A model generated the notes under the pieces. It saw only the letters and a list, made by a program, of their open reading frames with translations, did no database searches and was not told the DNA's origin. A stretch of 21,105 nucleotides of DNA from a virus, in IMG/VR virus record IMGVR_UViG_3300023110_000199, positions 1 through 21,105 of that record; one strand, written 5' to 3'. Shown piece by piece: positions 3,446 through 21,105 of the stretch. The position numbers and the translations under genes were made by a program. Within the stretch, counting starts at the first letter, position 1; each line of letters begins with the position of its first letter.

Positions 3446-4243
3446 TTATTTCTTGCCTAGTCTACTATACACAAAATCTACCAGAGCAGCTCTTGTAGCC
3501 TGAGCTTCTGATTCTTCTTCACCACCAATGCCAAGATTTACTTCGTCTTCTACTGTTACTTCATCTAAAATATCAGCAGCTTCTGAAGAGTCATCTTCGT
3601 TATCTGTAGCTTCTTCTGTAGTTTCTTCAGCGCCAGATTCTGTAGCCTCTACTGTTTGATCAGCAGCGACTTCTTCAGTTGACTCTGGATTTTGTGTTGA
3701 AACTTTAGTTAGTGTTGCTACAATACTATCAAATTGTTCATCGGTAAAATCTTCGAATTGCTTAGTAGTAGCTTCTGCGTCTTCTTCAGACAAACCAGCA
3801 CTTACCAAACTAGCCATTCTCTTTTTGTACATTTCTGCCATCATTCTTTCTTCTTCTTGTTTTCTGTATTGTGCTACGATTTCTTTTTCTTTATTTAATT
3901 CATCTTGCATTTCTGCAATTTTTTTATCGTACATAGCACATAATTCCGCTTTGGTCTCTTCTGTCTTAATGGCGAGTTCTTCACCAGCAACTGTGAGTTC
4001 TTTTTTCATTTCTTCAATAGCCGATGCATGAGAAGCTTCTAGCTCTTCTTTAACTGAAACCAAATTAGCCTCACACTCTTCTGATGCTTTGGCTTGAGCT
4101 TCTTGATGCTCTTTTAGAGCAGACTCGTTTGCAGATGCTGCTTCTTGAACCTGAGCTTCAAGTGCTTCAATCTTTTGTTTTAGTTCGTTGTTGAGAGTCT
4201 CAAGATCTGAAACTTGCTCTGTTGCTGTTGTATTTTCGGCCAT
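3446..4243 (-). CDS. Nested scaffold protein from internal in-frame start
   Basis: 265 residues starting MAENTTATEQ, the same frame and stop as the protease gene. The internal ATG (codon 274) is preceded by AATGGAGAATGATATT, a Shine-Dalgarno as good as those of the capsid genes, and it falls exactly where the protease domain ends and the coiled coil begins. The product would be a free scaffold: coiled-coil helices to about residue 125, then an acidic Glu/Asp/Thr/Ala-rich segment and a basic C-terminus. Lambda C/Nu3 is the known precedent for this arrangement. The internal initiation is read from sequence, not demonstrated. Confidence 0.65.
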   Translation of the reverse strand: MAENTTATEQVSDLETLNNELKQKIEALEAQVQEAASANESALKEHQEAQAKASEECEANLVSVKEELEASHASAIEEMKKELTVAGEELAIKTEETKAELCAMYDKKIAEMQDELNKEKEIVAQYRKQEEERMMAEMYKKRMASLVSAGLSEEDAEATTKQFEDFTDEQFDSIVATLTKVSTQNPESTEEVAADQTVEATESGAEETTEEATDNEDDSSEAADILDEVTVEDEVNLGIGGEEESEAQATRAALVDFVYSRLGKK

Positions 4244-16428: not shown

Positions 16429-16899
16429 ATGAAAAAAATATTGGTAGTATTGATTGTGCTTGTGACATGTAATGGTGTTTATGCTCAGCAACCTAGAACT
16501 CTTGGGGGGTTTGGTGCTGGTGGATTGGATGGTAATGGATTTGGAGACCCAGTGGCTAATGACTATGCAGGAATAGATTGGGGATACGATTTTCAAACAG
16601 GTATGATTATTAATGGATATGATACTGGTAAAGCTGCCGCTTTTGCCAATCGAATGTCTGGGTCTGGTTCTTATGGCATTCCTATGAGCCCCTCGTCTGC
16701 AGGTGGCTACTGGCAGCATAGAGAGGCAGAAATGGATGCTTATTTTAGAATGAGACTAAAAAATAAGATGTATAGAGACAGAGAAAAAAGATACGACAGC
16801 TATAGACTTAGCGGAGCATGGGAAGTTATGACATTCGAGCAATATGAAGCGGGAATGTCAGCGGCGTCATCAATATATAATTATATAACTGGCCAATAA
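16429..16899 (+). CDS. Exported phage protein with signal peptide
   Basis: 156 residues, not recognised. MKK followed by ILVVLIVLVTCNGVYA forms a Sec signal peptide with a likely cut after Ala19 (V-Y-A|QQ); the Cys14 context (LVTC) is a poor lipobox. The mature ~137 residues begin with a Gly-rich stretch (TLGGFGAGGLDGNGFGD), then acidic and aromatic segments, then a highly charged helix (HREAEMDAYFRMRLKNKMYRDREKRYDSY) and a C-terminal amphipathic end. GAGGAA lies 7 nt before the ATG. It has its own exact-consensus promoter and leader and stands alone. An envelope function during infection (receptor masking, superinfection exclusion, envelope modification) is possible; nothing in the sequence proves which. 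Confidence 0.85.
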   Translation: MKKILVVLIVLVTCNGVYAQQPRTLGGFGAGGLDGNGFGDPVANDYAGIDWGYDFQTGMIINGYDTGKAAAFANRMSGSGSYGIPMSPSSAGGYWQHREAEMDAYFRMRLKNKMYRDREKRYDSYRLSGAWEVMTFEQYEAGMSAASSIYNYITGQ

Positions 16900-16910
16900 A
16901 CTGGCCAATA
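16887..16910. repeat. 12-bp tandem duplication at a stop codon
   Basis: AACTGGCCAATA is repeated directly (16887-16898, 16899-16910). The first copy encodes the C-terminal TGQ and runs into the stop codon of the exported-protein gene. Likely a slippage duplication. Confidence 0.7.
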
Positions 16911-16942
16911 TCTCACAGGGTCGCCTACTATTTTTGCACCCC

Positions 16943-17093
16943 CCCGCGTTTTTCGCGGGCAACCCCCACCATTGGGGGGGAATGAAAAAACCCCCCTTCT
17001 GTGGGGTAATGCTAGACACCACCCATCTGTGGGGGTAATGCTAAACCCCCTTCTGTGGGGGGGGTAGTGCCGACACCCTGCCGATAGGGGGGG
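16943..17093 (+). repeat. Array of six C-tract/G-tract mini-hairpins
   Basis: Stems in order: CCCGCG-T5-CGCGGG (16943-16959), CCCCC-ACCATT-GGGGG (16963-16978), CCCC-TTCTGT-GGGG-type (16993-17006), CCCA-TCTG-TGGG (17022-17033), CCCCC-TTCTGT-GGGGG (17046-17061), CCCT-GCCGAT-AGGG (17076-17089). The middle three are imperfect direct repeats: TCTGTGGGG plus a TAATGCTA-like tail at 16998, 17026 and 17052 (spacing 28 and 26 bp). It begins 44 nt after the exported-protein gene and lies at the border between AT-rich and GC-rich DNA. No U-tracts follow. Candidate 3'-end, RNA-stability or replication-related element. Confidence 0.8.
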
Positions 17094-17103
17094 AAACGAC
17101 TAG

Positions 17104-17226: not shown

Positions 17227-17254
17227 TTGACTTTTGCCGATACTTAGGTATAAT
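17227..17254 (+). promoter_or_regulatory. Right-arm promoter P1, with TGCCGATA in the spacer
   Basis: TTGACT (17227-17232), 16-nt spacer, TATAAT (17249-17254). TGCCGATA lies at 17235-17242, two bases after the -35. The transcript starts with a leader containing five CAA-type repeats. Confidence 0.85.
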
Positions 17255-17299
17255 TCAGGCATGAAAGACAACAACAACAACAACCGAGAGGGTAGAAAA

Positions 17300-17452
17300 A
17301 TGAACTTGGAAATTTTCACTGTTTACGTTTCGGATTGCTGCGGTGCATATCTTGATGATGCCCACGTTGAACATGGCATTTGCCACGATTGCGGTGAGCA
17401 TTGTGAAATTGTGACAGAGGACTATCCTGCCACCCCCGTTTGTGGGGGGTAG
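17300..17452 (+). CDS. SDCCGA-type zinc-ribbon mini-protein (copy 1)
   Basis: 50 residues: MNLEIFTVYVSDCCGAYLDD then HGICHDCGEHCEIV. Two CC/CxxC pairs (SDCCGA and CHDCGEHC) form a zinc-ribbon type knuckle. A related protein is encoded at 20301-20510 (YVSDCCGA...VCRACGCTC). This start is chosen because GAGAGGG lies upstream at good spacing. An upstream ATG at 17261 would add a poly-Asn stretch that is simply the CAA leader also seen, untranslated, before the next gene. The last codons and stop form a CCCCC-GTTTGT-GGGGG hairpin (17433-17448). Small phage zinc ribbons often act on host proteins or nucleic acids; the target here is unknown. Confidence 0.75.
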   Translation: MNLEIFTVYVSDCCGAYLDDAHVEHGICHDCGEHCEIVTEDYPATPVCGG

Positions 17453-17473: not shown

Positions 17474-17502
17474 TTGACGCCAACCAAAATTGCCGATATA
17501 CT
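17474..17502 (+). promoter_or_regulatory. Right-arm promoter P2, TGCCGATA overlapping the -10
   Basis: TTGACG (17474-17479), 17-nt spacer, TATACT (17497-17502). TGCCGATA (17491-17498) overlaps the -10. Upstream, GAAAAATTCT is repeated with 10-11 bp phasing. The leader again contains CAA repeats before AGGAAA and the ATG. Confidence 0.85.
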
Positions 17503-18058: not shown

Positions 18059-18071
18059 CCCCTAGTCGGGG
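18059..18071 (+). repeat. C4/G4 hairpin abutting promoter P3
   Basis: CCCC-TAGTC-GGGG just after the nuclease stop and 2 nt before the -35 of P3. Possible terminator-like or RNA-end element at a gene-group boundary; no U-tract. Confidence 0.6.
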
Positions 18072-18073
18072 GG

Positions 18074-18101
18074 TTGACGGGACAAAAAAATTTGGTAGAC
18101 T
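18074..18101 (+). promoter_or_regulatory. Right-arm promoter P3
   Basis: TTGACG (18074-18079), 16-nt spacer, TAGACT (18096-18101). AATTTGGTAGACTTTGGA around the -10 is identical to P5; TGCCGATA is absent. Confidence 0.8.
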
Positions 18102-18125
18102 TTGGATAACTAAGGAGAAAACAAA

Positions 18126-18305
18126 ATGATGATTTACCCTACTCAGAACGACTATCGCCAGTATTTCGCCACGATGAGCAAGGAATTGCTCTCAGTGTGG
18201 ATCGAAGTTGCAGAACGCAAACTGCCACACTATACTAGGATCGAAGAGGTCGAAACCGTAAAGGCCGCTCTAATTGCGGCTCGTTGTGCATTGGCTGCTC
18301 GATAG
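18126..18305 (+). CDS. LSVWIEVAE-family small protein (copy 1)
   Basis: 59 residues beginning MMIYPTQNDYRQYF. The core MSKELLSVWIEVAERKLPHY with a following E-E-rich helix is closely matched by the protein encoded at 19320-19517 (MTDEMLSVWIEVAEHKLPHY), so these are paralogues, and their promoters are near-identical as well. Predicted helical. AAGGAG lies 8-11 nt before the tandem ATGs; the first is taken. The stop TAG overlaps the Shine-Dalgarno of the next gene. Function unknown; short early phage proteins of this kind often bind host factors. Confidence 0.8.
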   Translation: MMIYPTQNDYRQYFATMSKELLSVWIEVAERKLPHYTRIEEVETVKAALIAARCALAAR

Positions 18306-18612: not shown

Positions 18613-18849
18613 ATGACAACCTACGAAAAAATGACAACGCGAGAACTTGACGCTTGGATCCGGGAAGGTGGGAAAGACTTGAGCGATAATGCTCAAACGT
18701 ACACCCCAGCAAAGTATAGGCTAGTCGCCCATATGGTACGCTCTGCCGTTCGTGAGAAGTTGCGACGGCTTCACCACGCCGACTACATGCGTCGGGAATA
18801 CGCTTGGGAAACTGAACGGGCGATCAGGGGTGGCACTGGGTGGAGTTGA
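18613..18849 (+). CDS. Hypothetical early-type protein
   Basis: 78 residues from MTTYEKMTTRELDAWIREGG. An upstream in-frame start is rejected because GGAGAATGATAGA gives the correct Shine-Dalgarno spacing for this ATG and the longer form would overlap the previous gene. MTTRELDAWIREG is weakly reminiscent of the MxxE(L/M)LSVWIEVAE core of its neighbours, suggesting a distant third member. The remainder is a basic helix pair (RLVAHMVRSAVREKLRRLHHADYMRREY). Last gene of the P3 unit, followed 1 nt later by the first three-hairpin module. No function assigned. Confidence 0.75.
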   Translation: MTTYEKMTTRELDAWIREGGKDLSDNAQTYTPAKYRLVAHMVRSAVREKLRRLHHADYMRREYAWETERAIRGGTGWS

Positions 18850-18850
18850 T

Positions 18851-18928
18851 CCCCCATTGGGGGTATGGGCGCGAGCCCACCCCTCCAGTGAGGGGGTAGC
18901 CCCCTTGTCTTACCTAACCCTTCGGGTT
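18851..18928 (+). ncRNA. Three-hairpin intergenic module, copy 1 (plus a fourth hairpin)
   Basis: Hairpin A: CCCCC-ATT-GGGGG (18851-18863). Hairpin B: GGGC-GCGA-GCCC with a GNRA-type loop (18867-18878). Hairpin C: CCCCTC-CAGT-GAGGGG (18880-18895). A fourth hairpin, AACCC-TTC-GGGTT, follows at 18916-18928. Order, spacing and stems A-B-C are matched by a second module at 20155-20203. It starts 1 nt after a stop codon, so it would sit at the 3' end of the P3 transcript. It occupies much of the gene-free stretch 18850-19064; the rest is T-tract DNA and promoter P4. Confidence 0.6.
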
Positions 18929-18995
18929 GCGTATACATGCGTACAGCCAGCAAATACCGTGCCAAAAAAAATTTTTATTTTCTCGATTTTTTTGC

Positions 18996-19024
18996 TTGAC
19001 AACTAAAGTTCTGCCTGGTAAAAT
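18996..19024 (+). promoter_or_regulatory. Right-arm promoter P4, TGCCGATA at the start site
   Basis: TTGACA (18996-19001), 17-nt spacer, TAAAAT (19019-19024). TGCCGATA (19024-19031) begins on the last base of the -10 and covers the expected start. Upstream A8/T5 and T7 tracts resemble an UP element. The leader ATAAGAAGTAAG is shared with P6. Confidence 0.85.
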
Positions 19025-19064
19025 GCCGATATAAGAAGTAAGAGAGAAAGAAAGAGAGAAAAAG

Positions 19065-19241
19065 ATGTTCAAAGCAATTGCAAAAGGTTTCGACGGTTCG
19101 ACTCACTACACCTCAGAATTTCGCAACTATGCTGATGTCCTCAACTACGTTTTTGCGACTTTCATCGGTTGGGACGTTATTAAAGATATCGAAATTATCG
19201 ACGCTCAGACTGGTGAGTTGGTTGACGTTGTAGAAAATTAA
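19065..19241 (+). CDS. Hypothetical small acidic protein
   Basis: 58 residues: MFKAIAKGFDGSTHYTSEFR, then NYADVLNYVFATFIGWDVIKDIEIIDAQTGELVDVVEN. Strand-helix-strand layout ending in an acidic beta hairpin (IEIIDAQTGELVDVV); no family recognised. It is the only gene between P4 and P5. Translation uses a purine-only tract (GAAAGAGAGAAAAAG) directly before the ATG rather than a classical GGAGG; the same tract precedes 19320 and 19532. A CCCCC/GGGGG hairpin follows the stop by 5 nt. Confidence 0.75.
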   Translation: MFKAIAKGFDGSTHYTSEFRNYADVLNYVFATFIGWDVIKDIEIIDAQTGELVDVVEN

Positions 19242-19246
19242 ACCGA

Positions 19247-19260
19247 CCCCCACTAGGGGG
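19247..19260 (+). repeat. C5/G5 hairpin abutting promoter P5
   Basis: CCCCC-ACTA-GGGGG placed between a stop codon and the -35 of P5, which starts 2 nt later. Same architecture as at 18059-18079. Confidence 0.65.
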
Positions 19261-19261
19261 G

Positions 19262-19290
19262 TTGACAAGGCCGGAAAAATTTGGTAGACT
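19262..19290 (+). promoter_or_regulatory. Right-arm promoter P5 (duplicate of P3)
   Basis: TTGACA (19262-19267), 17-nt spacer, TAGACT (19285-19290), with AATTTGGTAGACTTTGGA identical to P3. It drives the paralogue of the P3 gene and the genes to 20147. Confidence 0.85.
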
Positions 19291-19319
19291 TTGGAAGTAA
19301 GAAAGAAAGAGAGAAAAAA

Positions 19320-19517
19320 ATGACAACGCTAAAAGCACAATACGATAGCCTTCAAGAGCAATTCCACAAGATGACCGATGAAATGCTCTCGGTGTGGATT
19401 GAAGTAGCAGAACACAAACTGCCACACTATCGTCGAACCGAAGAAATACTATCGGTTCTCAATGGCATCCACGCCGCCAAGAGCGTTCAACGCTATCGAG
19501 AAAACAATTGGGAATAG
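19320..19517 (+). CDS. LSVWIEVAE-family small protein (copy 2)
   Basis: 65 residues: MTTLKAQYDSLQEQFHKMTD, then EMLSVWIEVAEHKLPHYRRTEEILSVLNGIHAAK and a basic tail. It shares LSVWIEVAE.KLPHY and the following E-E helix with the 18126 gene; the N- and C-terminal extensions differ. The first 20 residues could form a short coiled coil. The start follows the purine tract GAAAGAGAGAAAAAA; an upstream in-frame start would precede or overlap the promoter start region and is rejected. First gene of the P5 unit. Function unknown. Confidence 0.8.
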   Translation: MTTLKAQYDSLQEQFHKMTDEMLSVWIEVAEHKLPHYRRTEEILSVLNGIHAAKSVQRYRENNWE

Positions 19518-19531
19518 AAAGAGAGAAAAAG

Positions 19532-19714
19532 ATGAGTAAGCATGATGATGATCGGATCACCTCTGACGACCTTCTGATGAATCAAGAATCATTTGAACAG
19601 ATGATTGAGGATTGTCATGATGAGGAAAGCGAAGAACGAATTGTTAGTTTTGCCCAACAGCGTCGTGCTGACAGGCTTAGGAATTGGAAGAAAGAGAGTG
19701 AAAGAGATGAGTAA
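19532..19714 (+). CDS. Hypothetical acidic protein
   Basis: 60 residues: MSKHDDDRITSDDLLMNQES, an acidic helix (FEQMIEDCHDEESEERIVSF), then a basic C-terminus (AQQRRADRLRNWKKESERDE). Predicted helical with strong charge separation; no family recognised. Its ATG is preceded by the repeated tract GAAAGAGAGAAAAAG, and its last 8 nt (ATGAGTAA) are the start of the next gene, implying coupling. Such acidic early phage proteins sometimes mimic DNA, but the basic tail argues against a simple mimic. Confidence 0.75.
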   Translation: MSKHDDDRITSDDLLMNQESFEQMIEDCHDEESEERIVSFAQQRRADRLRNWKKESERDE

Positions 19715-19883
19715 GTATCAAATGTTCAGTACCTATCGTCGCCATGATGGCGGTTACTTTGAATGCTACAAGAACGATGAGTATCTTGGCAACGTGTACG
19801 CTAGTACAGAGAAGGCTGCAAGGTATAAAGCCTTCAAGTTGTTTGGTGTTTGGTGCAATGTTTATTGGCAAGATGGAGAATGA
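19707..19883 (+). CDS. Hypothetical small aromatic-rich protein
   Basis: 58 residues: MSKYQMFSTYRRHDGGYFEC, then YKNDEYLGNVYASTEKAARYKAFKLFGVWCNVYWQDGE. It has a beta-beta-helix-beta pattern in which a helix (STEKAARYKAFKLFG) follows two strands, a compact fold seen in many small phage proteins; no specific family identified. It starts within the end of the upstream gene (8-nt overlap) and ends just before the next Shine-Dalgarno. Part of the P5 unit. Confidence 0.72.
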   Translation: MSKYQMFSTYRRHDGGYFECYKNDEYLGNVYASTEKAARYKAFKLFGVWCNVYWQDGE

Positions 19884-19885
19884 AA

Positions 19886-20068
19886 ATGAAAACTAAACTT
19901 TACAATTCGGAAACTGTACCGCCCTCACACAAGGAATGCCCAAGCGGTTACTGTAGAACAGAGAACGGGTTTTGGACTTACTCACGACGAGCGGCCCGTA
20001 ACCCTCGTTTGTTTGGTAAAAATGCTGGTTGGATGTTTGTAGATATGAGGAAAAAAAATGAAAAGTAA
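19886..20068 (+). CDS. Hypothetical small basic protein
   Basis: 60 residues: MKTKLYNSETVPPSHKECPS, then GYCRTENGFWTYSRRAARNPRLFGKNAGWMFVDMRKKNEK. Contains CPSGYC (Cys18, Cys23) and several aromatics; basic overall. Two ATGs are available 6 nt apart; the second is chosen because GGAG is 7 nt from it and only 1 nt from the first. Its last codons overlap the next short gene by 11 nt. No family recognised. Confidence 0.72.
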   Translation: MKTKLYNSETVPPSHKECPSGYCRTENGFWTYSRRAARNPRLFGKNAGWMFVDMRKKNEK

Positions 20069-20147
20069 ACTTGATAACGATGGTTTGGCTGTTATGTTAT
20101 TTCTTATTGTGTGTGTTATGGTAATATTTATGGAAAGATTGGGGTAA
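20058..20147 (+). CDS. 29-residue single-pass membrane peptide
   Basis: MKSKLDNDGLAVMLFLIVCV followed by MVIFMERLG. A short charged N-terminus, ~17 hydrophobic residues (LAVMLFLIVCVMVIFM) and a charged end: a classic small membrane protein. GAGG lies 7 nt upstream, and the gene overlaps the preceding stop by 11 nt. Last gene of the P5 unit, followed by the second three-hairpin module. Possible roles for such peptides include membrane perturbation, superinfection exclusion or regulation of a membrane complex; none is proven here. Confidence 0.65.
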   Translation: MKSKLDNDGLAVMLFLIVCVMVIFMERLG

Positions 20148-20154
20148 GGAATAG

Positions 20155-20203
20155 CCCCTCTTTGGTGGGGGTGGGCGCTCGCTCAACCCCTCGCTGGTGG
20201 GGT
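20155..20203 (+). ncRNA. Three-hairpin intergenic module, copy 2
   Basis: Hairpin A: CCCC-TCTTTGGT-GGGG (20155-20170). Hairpin B: GGGC-GCTC-GCTC (20173-20184; one G-U pair keeps the stem). Hairpin C: ACCCC-TCGCTGGT-GGGGT (20186-20203). Same order as 18851-18895, with different loops but conserved pairing. T-tracts follow (ATTTTTTC, ATTTTTC) leading to the -35 of P6, so it may also terminate the P5 transcript. Confidence 0.6.
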
Positions 20204-20228: not shown

Positions 20229-20256
20229 TTGACATTCAAGTTTGCTGTGGTAGAAT
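20229..20256 (+). promoter_or_regulatory. Right-arm promoter P6, near-match TTCCGATA at the start site
   Basis: TTGACA (20229-20234), 16-nt spacer, TAGAAT (20251-20256). TTCCGATA (20256-20263) starts on the last base of the -10 exactly as TGCCGATA does in P4, followed by the same ATAAGAAGTAAG leader. Confidence 0.85.
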
Positions 20257-20300
20257 TCCGATATAAGAAGTAAGGAGCACAGGAAAACAGGAGGATGAAG

Positions 20301-20517: not shown

Positions 20518-20546
20518 TTGACAAGTGCCGATAAGTATTGTAGACT
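20518..20546 (+). promoter_or_regulatory. Right-arm promoter P7, with TGCCGATA in the spacer
   Basis: TTGACA (20518-20523), 17-nt spacer, TAGACT (20541-20546). TGCCGATA (20526-20533) lies two bases after the -35, the same placement as in P1. Confidence 0.85.
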
Positions 20547-21021: not shown

Positions 21022-21105
21022 ATGAGTGGTTACAACGGTTACAGCAATTACGCAACGTGGAACGTCGCCCTCTGGATCAAAAACGATCAAGAACTCTATA
21101 ATATC
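21022..21105 (+). CDS. Conserved phage protein, N-terminus only
   Basis: 28 codons before the window ends. SGYNGYSNYATWNVALWIKN, then DQELYNI, matches the opening (GYnGy.nYeTWNvaLWi.NDe.lYn) of a small protein family found in many unrelated tailed phages; its function is unknown to me. The ATG at 21022 is preferred over one 6 nt upstream because GGAG is 7 nt from it. Part of the P7 unit. Confidence 0.75.
   Translation, partial: MSGYNGYSNYATWNVALWIKNDQELYNI

Follow-up and report, generated by a model that had tools for sequence, protein, structure and literature searches.

In T4-type phages, a stem-loop and an early promoter can share one intergenic block flanked by small early genes, the promoter early stem-loop (PeSL) cassette, which has been linked to gene shuffling (Arbiol 2010, Comeau 2014, both cited in PMC4503421). 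In bacteria, REP/BIME elements are extragenic imperfect palindromes that occur as regularly spaced pairs, hybrid pairs included (PMC2817692). Cluster A mycobacteriophages have stoperators, 13-bp asymmetric sites that are bound by a monomer, occupy small gaps between genes and work in one orientation only (PMC9283540). At the RNA level, bacterial hairpin-cluster terminators consist of at least two hairpins less than 15 nt apart, located no more than 80 nt from a stop codon and functioning without a poly-U tract (PMC8355165).

The DNA analysed here, a 21-kb viral fragment (21,105 nt in full; hereafter the window), carries two three-part modules in its early region. On our best reading, the PeSL cassette is the nearest concept, resembling the present element without being identical to it. 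Here too, a stem-loop and an early sigma70-type promoter lie in the same intergenic region, but the element comprises two palindromes around a GC-rich core of ~16 bp, has fixed spacing, comes in three families and, in the family termed H2, is phased to the promoter. Moreover, it occurs in phages that match no cultured phage by DNA, save for 77 nt of Synechococcus phage S-PM2. Paired, regularly spaced palindromes with hybrids are also reminiscent of REP/BIME, from which the element differs in being strictly oriented with transcription and tied to promoters; a REP/BIME system with RAYT was rejected, the PF01797 Y1 transposase being found in 0/20 records (fragments included). Stoperators likewise exist in many copies in short intergenic gaps and follow the orientation of transcription, but the sites described here are palindromes paired around a GC core.

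Two bacterial systems offer further comparisons. Integron attC sites have a variable centre flanked by two simple sites made of inverted repeats, lie behind small genes and are unidirectional. Paired inverted-repeat sites behind small genes, with an H2 spacer that is always 7 nt, recall this architecture; however, the H2 half-sites (TAANNNCTT) appear to depart from the attC half-site consensus, and many of the elements have their own promoter behind them. An integron-like site was also rejected on the PF00589 tyrosine recombinase, which was found in 0/22 phage records; a recombinase of the host could still act on such sites. Class I activator sites of the CRP type are palindromes upstream of the −35 box, at positions one helical turn apart. 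In the H2 form, palindromes upstream of the −35 at one-turn steps occur here as well, but they are paired around a GC core, and the promoters are already near consensus.

The window and the anatomy of its two modules

The left part of the window, with a GC content of ~34% in most stretches, carries a terminase gene among late and metabolic genes, while the right part, from ~17 kb, has a GC content of 43–49% and is occupied by small early-type genes with repeated promoters. This shift does not reflect an assembly chimera, since a related locus, L005, has homologues of both halves. Relatives of the window were drawn from IMG/VR, and genes were called by a simple script rather than a standard gene finder; contigs are non-independent draws, and near-duplicates were removed. 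Neither a near search with the window nor a distant search with two related loci, represented by their early regions, returned a cultured phage. The only cultured-phage match of the window's early region is the 77 nt of S-PM2 mentioned above, where a reading frame at 21027–21103 resembles the S-PM2 gene at 23768–23974 (77.9% DNA identity over 77 nt). S-PM2 has only a few small gene families in common with the phage group, and scanning its positions 4000–30000 for palindrome doubles yielded zero. The window's terminase best resembles those of Microcystis phage MaeS and Bacillus phages (24–25% identity). WhiB and psbA, looked for as host clues in 17 records, were both absent.

At the border between late and early genes, a noncoding block (16887–17000) is 70–85% conserved in many relatives, its conserved words (TAAACTGGCCAATT ... 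TTTTTRGACCACC ... AAAACAGAAAAACCCCCC) being separated by hairpins that vary; it is possibly an origin, a packaging site or a unit boundary. About six GC hairpins stand in tandem at 16938–17098, ahead of the first early promoter, and the word TAATGCTA recurs between some of them.

The two modules share one layout, palindrome–16-nt GC-rich core–palindrome, with all palindromes belonging to the C-tract class (H1) and all features lying on the + strand. Module 1 starts 1 nt past the stop codon of the gene at 18613–18849. Its left palindrome, CCCCCATTGGGGG (18851–18863), is kept in L005 and reads CCCTCATTAGGG in another relative, L157. The core, TATGGGCGCGAGCCCA (18864–18879), holds the middle hairpin GGGC-GCGA-GCCC, a core of 16 nt being a feature of H1–H1 and H1–H2 elements elsewhere too; the right palindrome, CCCCTCCAGTGAGGGG (18880–18895), is replaced by CCCCTCGCTGGTGGGG in L005. 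Between module 1 and its promoter, 100 bp away, sequence and fold reveal an extra hairpin, AACCCTTCGGGTT (18916–18928), which is present in L057 and L160 and missing from L005. The promoter itself reads TTGACA-N17-TAAAAT followed by GCCGATATAAG (18996–19024). Module 2 starts 7 nt past the stop of the ORF at 20058–20147 and consists of the left palindrome CCCCTCTTTGGTGGGG (20155–20170; also in L004, L005 and L007), the core GTGGGCGCTCGCTCAA (20171–20186) and the right palindrome CCCCTCGCTGGTGGGG (20187–20202). From the centre of the latter, it is 34 bp to the −35 (34.0 for the homologue in L005) of the promoter TTGACA-N16-TAGAAT, which is followed by TCCGATATAAG (20229–20256).

This anatomy agrees with the initial annotation, which had placed two three-hairpin modules at 18851–18895 and 20155–20203, behind the last gene of a unit and ahead of a promoter. 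The right end of the second falls at 20202, the preceding stops lie at 18849 and 20147, and both promoters are strong and sigma70-like, with their −35 boxes at 18996 and 20229. Linkers said to span 1–3 nt measure 3, 1, 2 and 2 nt, and the G-U pair described as kept in one stem is located in the middle stem of module 2. Two instances of the three-hairpin pattern are present in the window's early half, compared to none in any of 2000 first-order Markov shuffles of that half.

Single H1 palindromes are present as well. Two of them (18059–18073 and 19247–19261) follow a stop codon and abut the −35 of the next promoter, at 18074 and 19262, respectively; the corresponding palindrome–promoter–gene cassettes (18059–18247 and 19247–19444) are diverged copies of each other. 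A third (17433–17449) is centred 33 bp before the promoter at 17474.

The promoters show conservation of their own. A CCGATA word is conserved in those at 18996–19040, 20229–20273, 17227–17255 and 20518–20546, either behind the −10 (CGATATAAG) or within the spacer, and it is seen in distant relatives too; its conservation exceeds the needs of a sigma70 promoter. In L130, L031 and L039, another palindrome (TTTGGCA..ATTTGC / GCAAAT..TGCCAAA) is found right before promoters, half of which, GCAAATACCGTGCCAAA, is present at 18950–18966 of the window, before the promoter at 18996.

Families, spacing and helical phase of the element

The finding is larger than two RNA modules: these represent, in its C-tract form, a general element—recurrent, oriented, strictly spaced and composite—of which uncultured aquatic phages hold a large, previously unlinked set. 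Its palindromes fall into three families, i.e. H1 (CCCC..GGGG, the window's class), H2 (TAANNNCTT-N7-AAGNNNTTA) and H3 (TGCCAAAATGGCA). The H2 spacer measured 7 nt in all of the first 64 cases. In 188 unique elements, the two H2 sites have starts separated by exactly 53 bp, compared to 0–4 elements at 12 other offsets. The spacing of H3 pairs is 29 bp in 47/59 cases, and the gap is ~16 nt in H1–H1 elements whose middle is GC-rich. Centre distances of 32–34 (H1–H1) and ~41.5 (H1–H2) correspond to near-whole helical turns; the 29 bp of H3 is no whole number of turns. GC-only runs of at least 11 nt, many of them between palindromes, are enriched sevenfold in 129 loci (303 observed vs 43 expected).

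Hybrids connect the families: 15 H1–H2 elements with a core of ~16 nt were found, compared to none in five shuffled data sets. H2 and H3 never occurred in one record among the records searched for both, a mutual exclusion that would be expected of cognate factors. In long records, H2 sites are restricted to one region. A search of cellular genomes for the H2 palindrome gave 23 matches, all singles, which we read as unrelated or chance occurrences; four of the 23 are only a few bases away from tRNA genes called by ARAGORN (L134, L145, L147 and L149, Treponema and planctomycete assemblies).

Homologues of the window's modules illustrate how the parts are combined. L005 retains both modules, and the right palindrome of its module 1 is identical to that of the window's module 2. 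In L157 (the same contig as L007), L161 (close to L110) and L160, homologues of module 1 have only hairpin 1 in comparable form, the middle and third hairpins being replaced. Hairpin 1 reads CCCTCATTAGGG or CCCTCATCAGGG in L157/L161, with one pair compensated from C-G to U-A, and is followed there by an H2 palindrome, then a GC core and finally a further palindrome of the C-tract type. Similarly, the left palindrome of module 2 is retained in L004 and L007, while a CCGGCCGGCCGAGTC core and an H2 site replace the rest; in L007, CCCGGCCGGCCGAGTC stands in for the core, together with an H2 right site. These swaps of cores and palindromes indicate that hairpins are traded as units inside a fixed layout.

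The elements follow the direction of transcription. Of the ~211 elements located in intergenic DNA, 189 are flanked by genes co-directional with the element, at a median distance from the stop codon of 8 nt (H1), 15.5 nt (H2) and 36 nt (H3). An orientation model derived from H2 elements matched the promoter direction in 55/56 cases, the same promoters having seeded the model, and H3 centres carry AAA in sense in 16/17 elements, the remaining one being AAA/TAA. A second sample of 359 new H2 elements was retrieved by the H2 pair itself, without promoter anchoring. Here, a promoter was located no more than 130 nt downstream in sense in 205/359 elements, vs 32 on the opposite side and 11% for random positions; with confident orientation only, the counts were 152/242 downstream and 9 on the other side.

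Distances from H2 elements to the −35 peak at 20, 30–31, 41–42 and 52 bp, i.e. about one DNA turn apart, a pattern that indicates contact between RNA polymerase and a factor bound to DNA. At a period of 10.5 bp, the vector strength is R = 0.54 (p ~4e-13, n = 98 after strict de-duplication). When the distances were jittered by up to 6 bp, none of 2000 trials attained the observed value. A period scan gave 10.5–10.7 bp in the new sample, but in some of the pooled subsets ~12 bp scored at least as high. Distances from H2 elements to start codons lack the 10.5-bp period (p = 0.66), and those from stop codons to the elements carry a signal of their own at 10.5 bp, albeit a weaker one (R = 0.23). 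Where the right site is H1, the distances (17 cases) are scattered, and the whole H3 set shows no visible phase (p = 0.39); phasing is thus demonstrated for H2, not for the window's class.

Possible roles: promoter control, RNA ends or recombination

The modules look more like protein-binding sites for promoter control than RNA transcript ends. We give an about even chance to the reading that they are composite promoter-upstream control or boundary elements, acting at the DNA level before early promoters. In its H1 form, such a directional element would mark the start of early transcription units. A dimeric factor, encoded by the phage or the host, would bind each palindrome, and both bound palindromes would sit on one face of the helix. 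The bound complex would contact RNA polymerase at the downstream promoter, either activating or repressing it, and would also separate this promoter from the preceding unit. For the window's modules, we infer this function from the layout, core length and position in common with the wider set and from the hybrids, such that the H1 form would work like the H2 form. More tentatively, and at somewhat less than an even chance, two palindromes of interchangeable families would lie on one DNA face, held apart by a 16-bp core made almost exclusively of G and C. Such elements would recur many times along the early region, and every class would be recognized by a separate factor, encoded by the phage and acting on RNA polymerase at the following promoter.

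Several points count against promoter control: phase is not visible for right H1 sites or for H3 as a whole, module 1 is as far as 100 bp from its promoter, the H3 spacing departs from whole turns, and some pooled subsets favour a period of ~12 bp. The location right behind stop codons fits a transcript end too. In that case, tandem hairpins in the 3′ UTR would terminate transcription without a U-tract or shield the RNA from exonucleases, an RNA-level unit end that we consider unlikely, albeit with evidence in its favour. Both modules fold better than shuffles (z = −4.3 for module 1, z = −3.0 for module 2), and, starting 1 nt (module 1) and 7 nt (module 2) past a stop codon and having linkers of 1–3 nt, they fall within the description of bacterial hairpin clusters, which are reported to terminate without poly-U (PMC8355165). 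However, the most stable fold mixes both side hairpins: the minimum-energy structure of each module is a single rod in which one side hairpin contributes the C-tract and the other the G-tract of the pairing (−33.0 kcal/mol, compared to −26.7 for three hairpins, in module 1; −27.7 compared to −19.8 in module 2). Single-mismatch hairpins upstream of promoters mildly prefer G-U over A-C (35 vs 20, p = 0.06; ~17:16 in shuffles). Along with the compensated pair in hairpin 1, this mild excess speaks for a possible RNA role, especially for H1.

H2, by contrast, has arms that pair no better than independent arms. Within genomes, their complementarity is slightly below that of shuffled pairings in all four arm combinations; site totals display no Watson–Crick excess over independence and hardly any G-U excess, and site 1 even has more A-C mismatches than G-U pairs. 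An apparent covariation of the inner arms (z = +8), considered as an RNA hairpin signal, was gone after within-genome arm shuffling and thus reflected relatedness; the outer arms seemed negatively correlated as long as the data were unoriented, in part an artefact of mixed orientation. Selection on RNA structure, as suggested by the initial annotation, is therefore not borne out, given H2 arms without covariation, the rarity of U-tracts and module 1 homologues in which two of the three hairpins are replaced and one pair is compensated. Nor is there support for the roles that it proposed (transcript ends, RNase blocks, stable small RNAs), as U-tracts are rare and H2 is phased to the promoter. 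T-runs no more than 12 nt past the element occur in 0/13 H1, 9/188 H2 and 7/46 H3 elements, which as a class do not conform to the canonical intrinsic terminator, a GC-rich hairpin with a direct U-tract, and a terminator scan of the window did not list the modules, apart from a spurious stem at 20141–20158. Rfam searches gave no match above the gathering score in the window and only tRNAs in 14 related loci. Finally, termination needs neither strict spacing nor a phase to the promoter, and the fixed helical phase has no evident role in it.

A recombination joint is another candidate explanation. If palindrome–promoter blocks served as shared homology for swapping small early-gene cassettes between phages, as in PeSLs, a direct role in expression would be unnecessary. 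Ends of homology blocks between the window and its relatives lie near intergenic DNA more often than expected (57% vs 32%, p = 0.0025), with the L007 block stopping within module 1 at 18871, and both the diverged cassettes at 18059–18247 and 19247–19444 and the site exchanged between module 1 of L005 and module 2 of the window are in line with such joints. Yet, orientation, exact spacing, the GC-only core and phasing are left unexplained, and neither the tyrosine recombinase (PF00589, 0/22 records) nor the Y1 transposase (PF01797, 0/20) was detected; we consider a recombination joint improbable. Silencing akin to that by stoperators, in which a repressor on oriented sites would halt elongation across the early genes, be it in a lysogen or at a late stage of infection, is very unlikely: the elements do follow transcription as stoperators do (PMC9283540), but they are palindromic and paired, their promoter-proximal phasing better fits promoter contact, and the absence of an integrase from the searched records leaves a temperate life style without sign.

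If promoter control by composite elements holds true, the early region of an abundant group of uncultured aquatic phages would be governed by numerous near-identical control elements, and the rules that these obey in spacing, core, orientation and phase would be legible from sequence. This would provide a handle for discovering the factors involved and for sorting phages into regulatory classes, and it would offer insight into how small early genes are swapped as ready-made expression cassettes.
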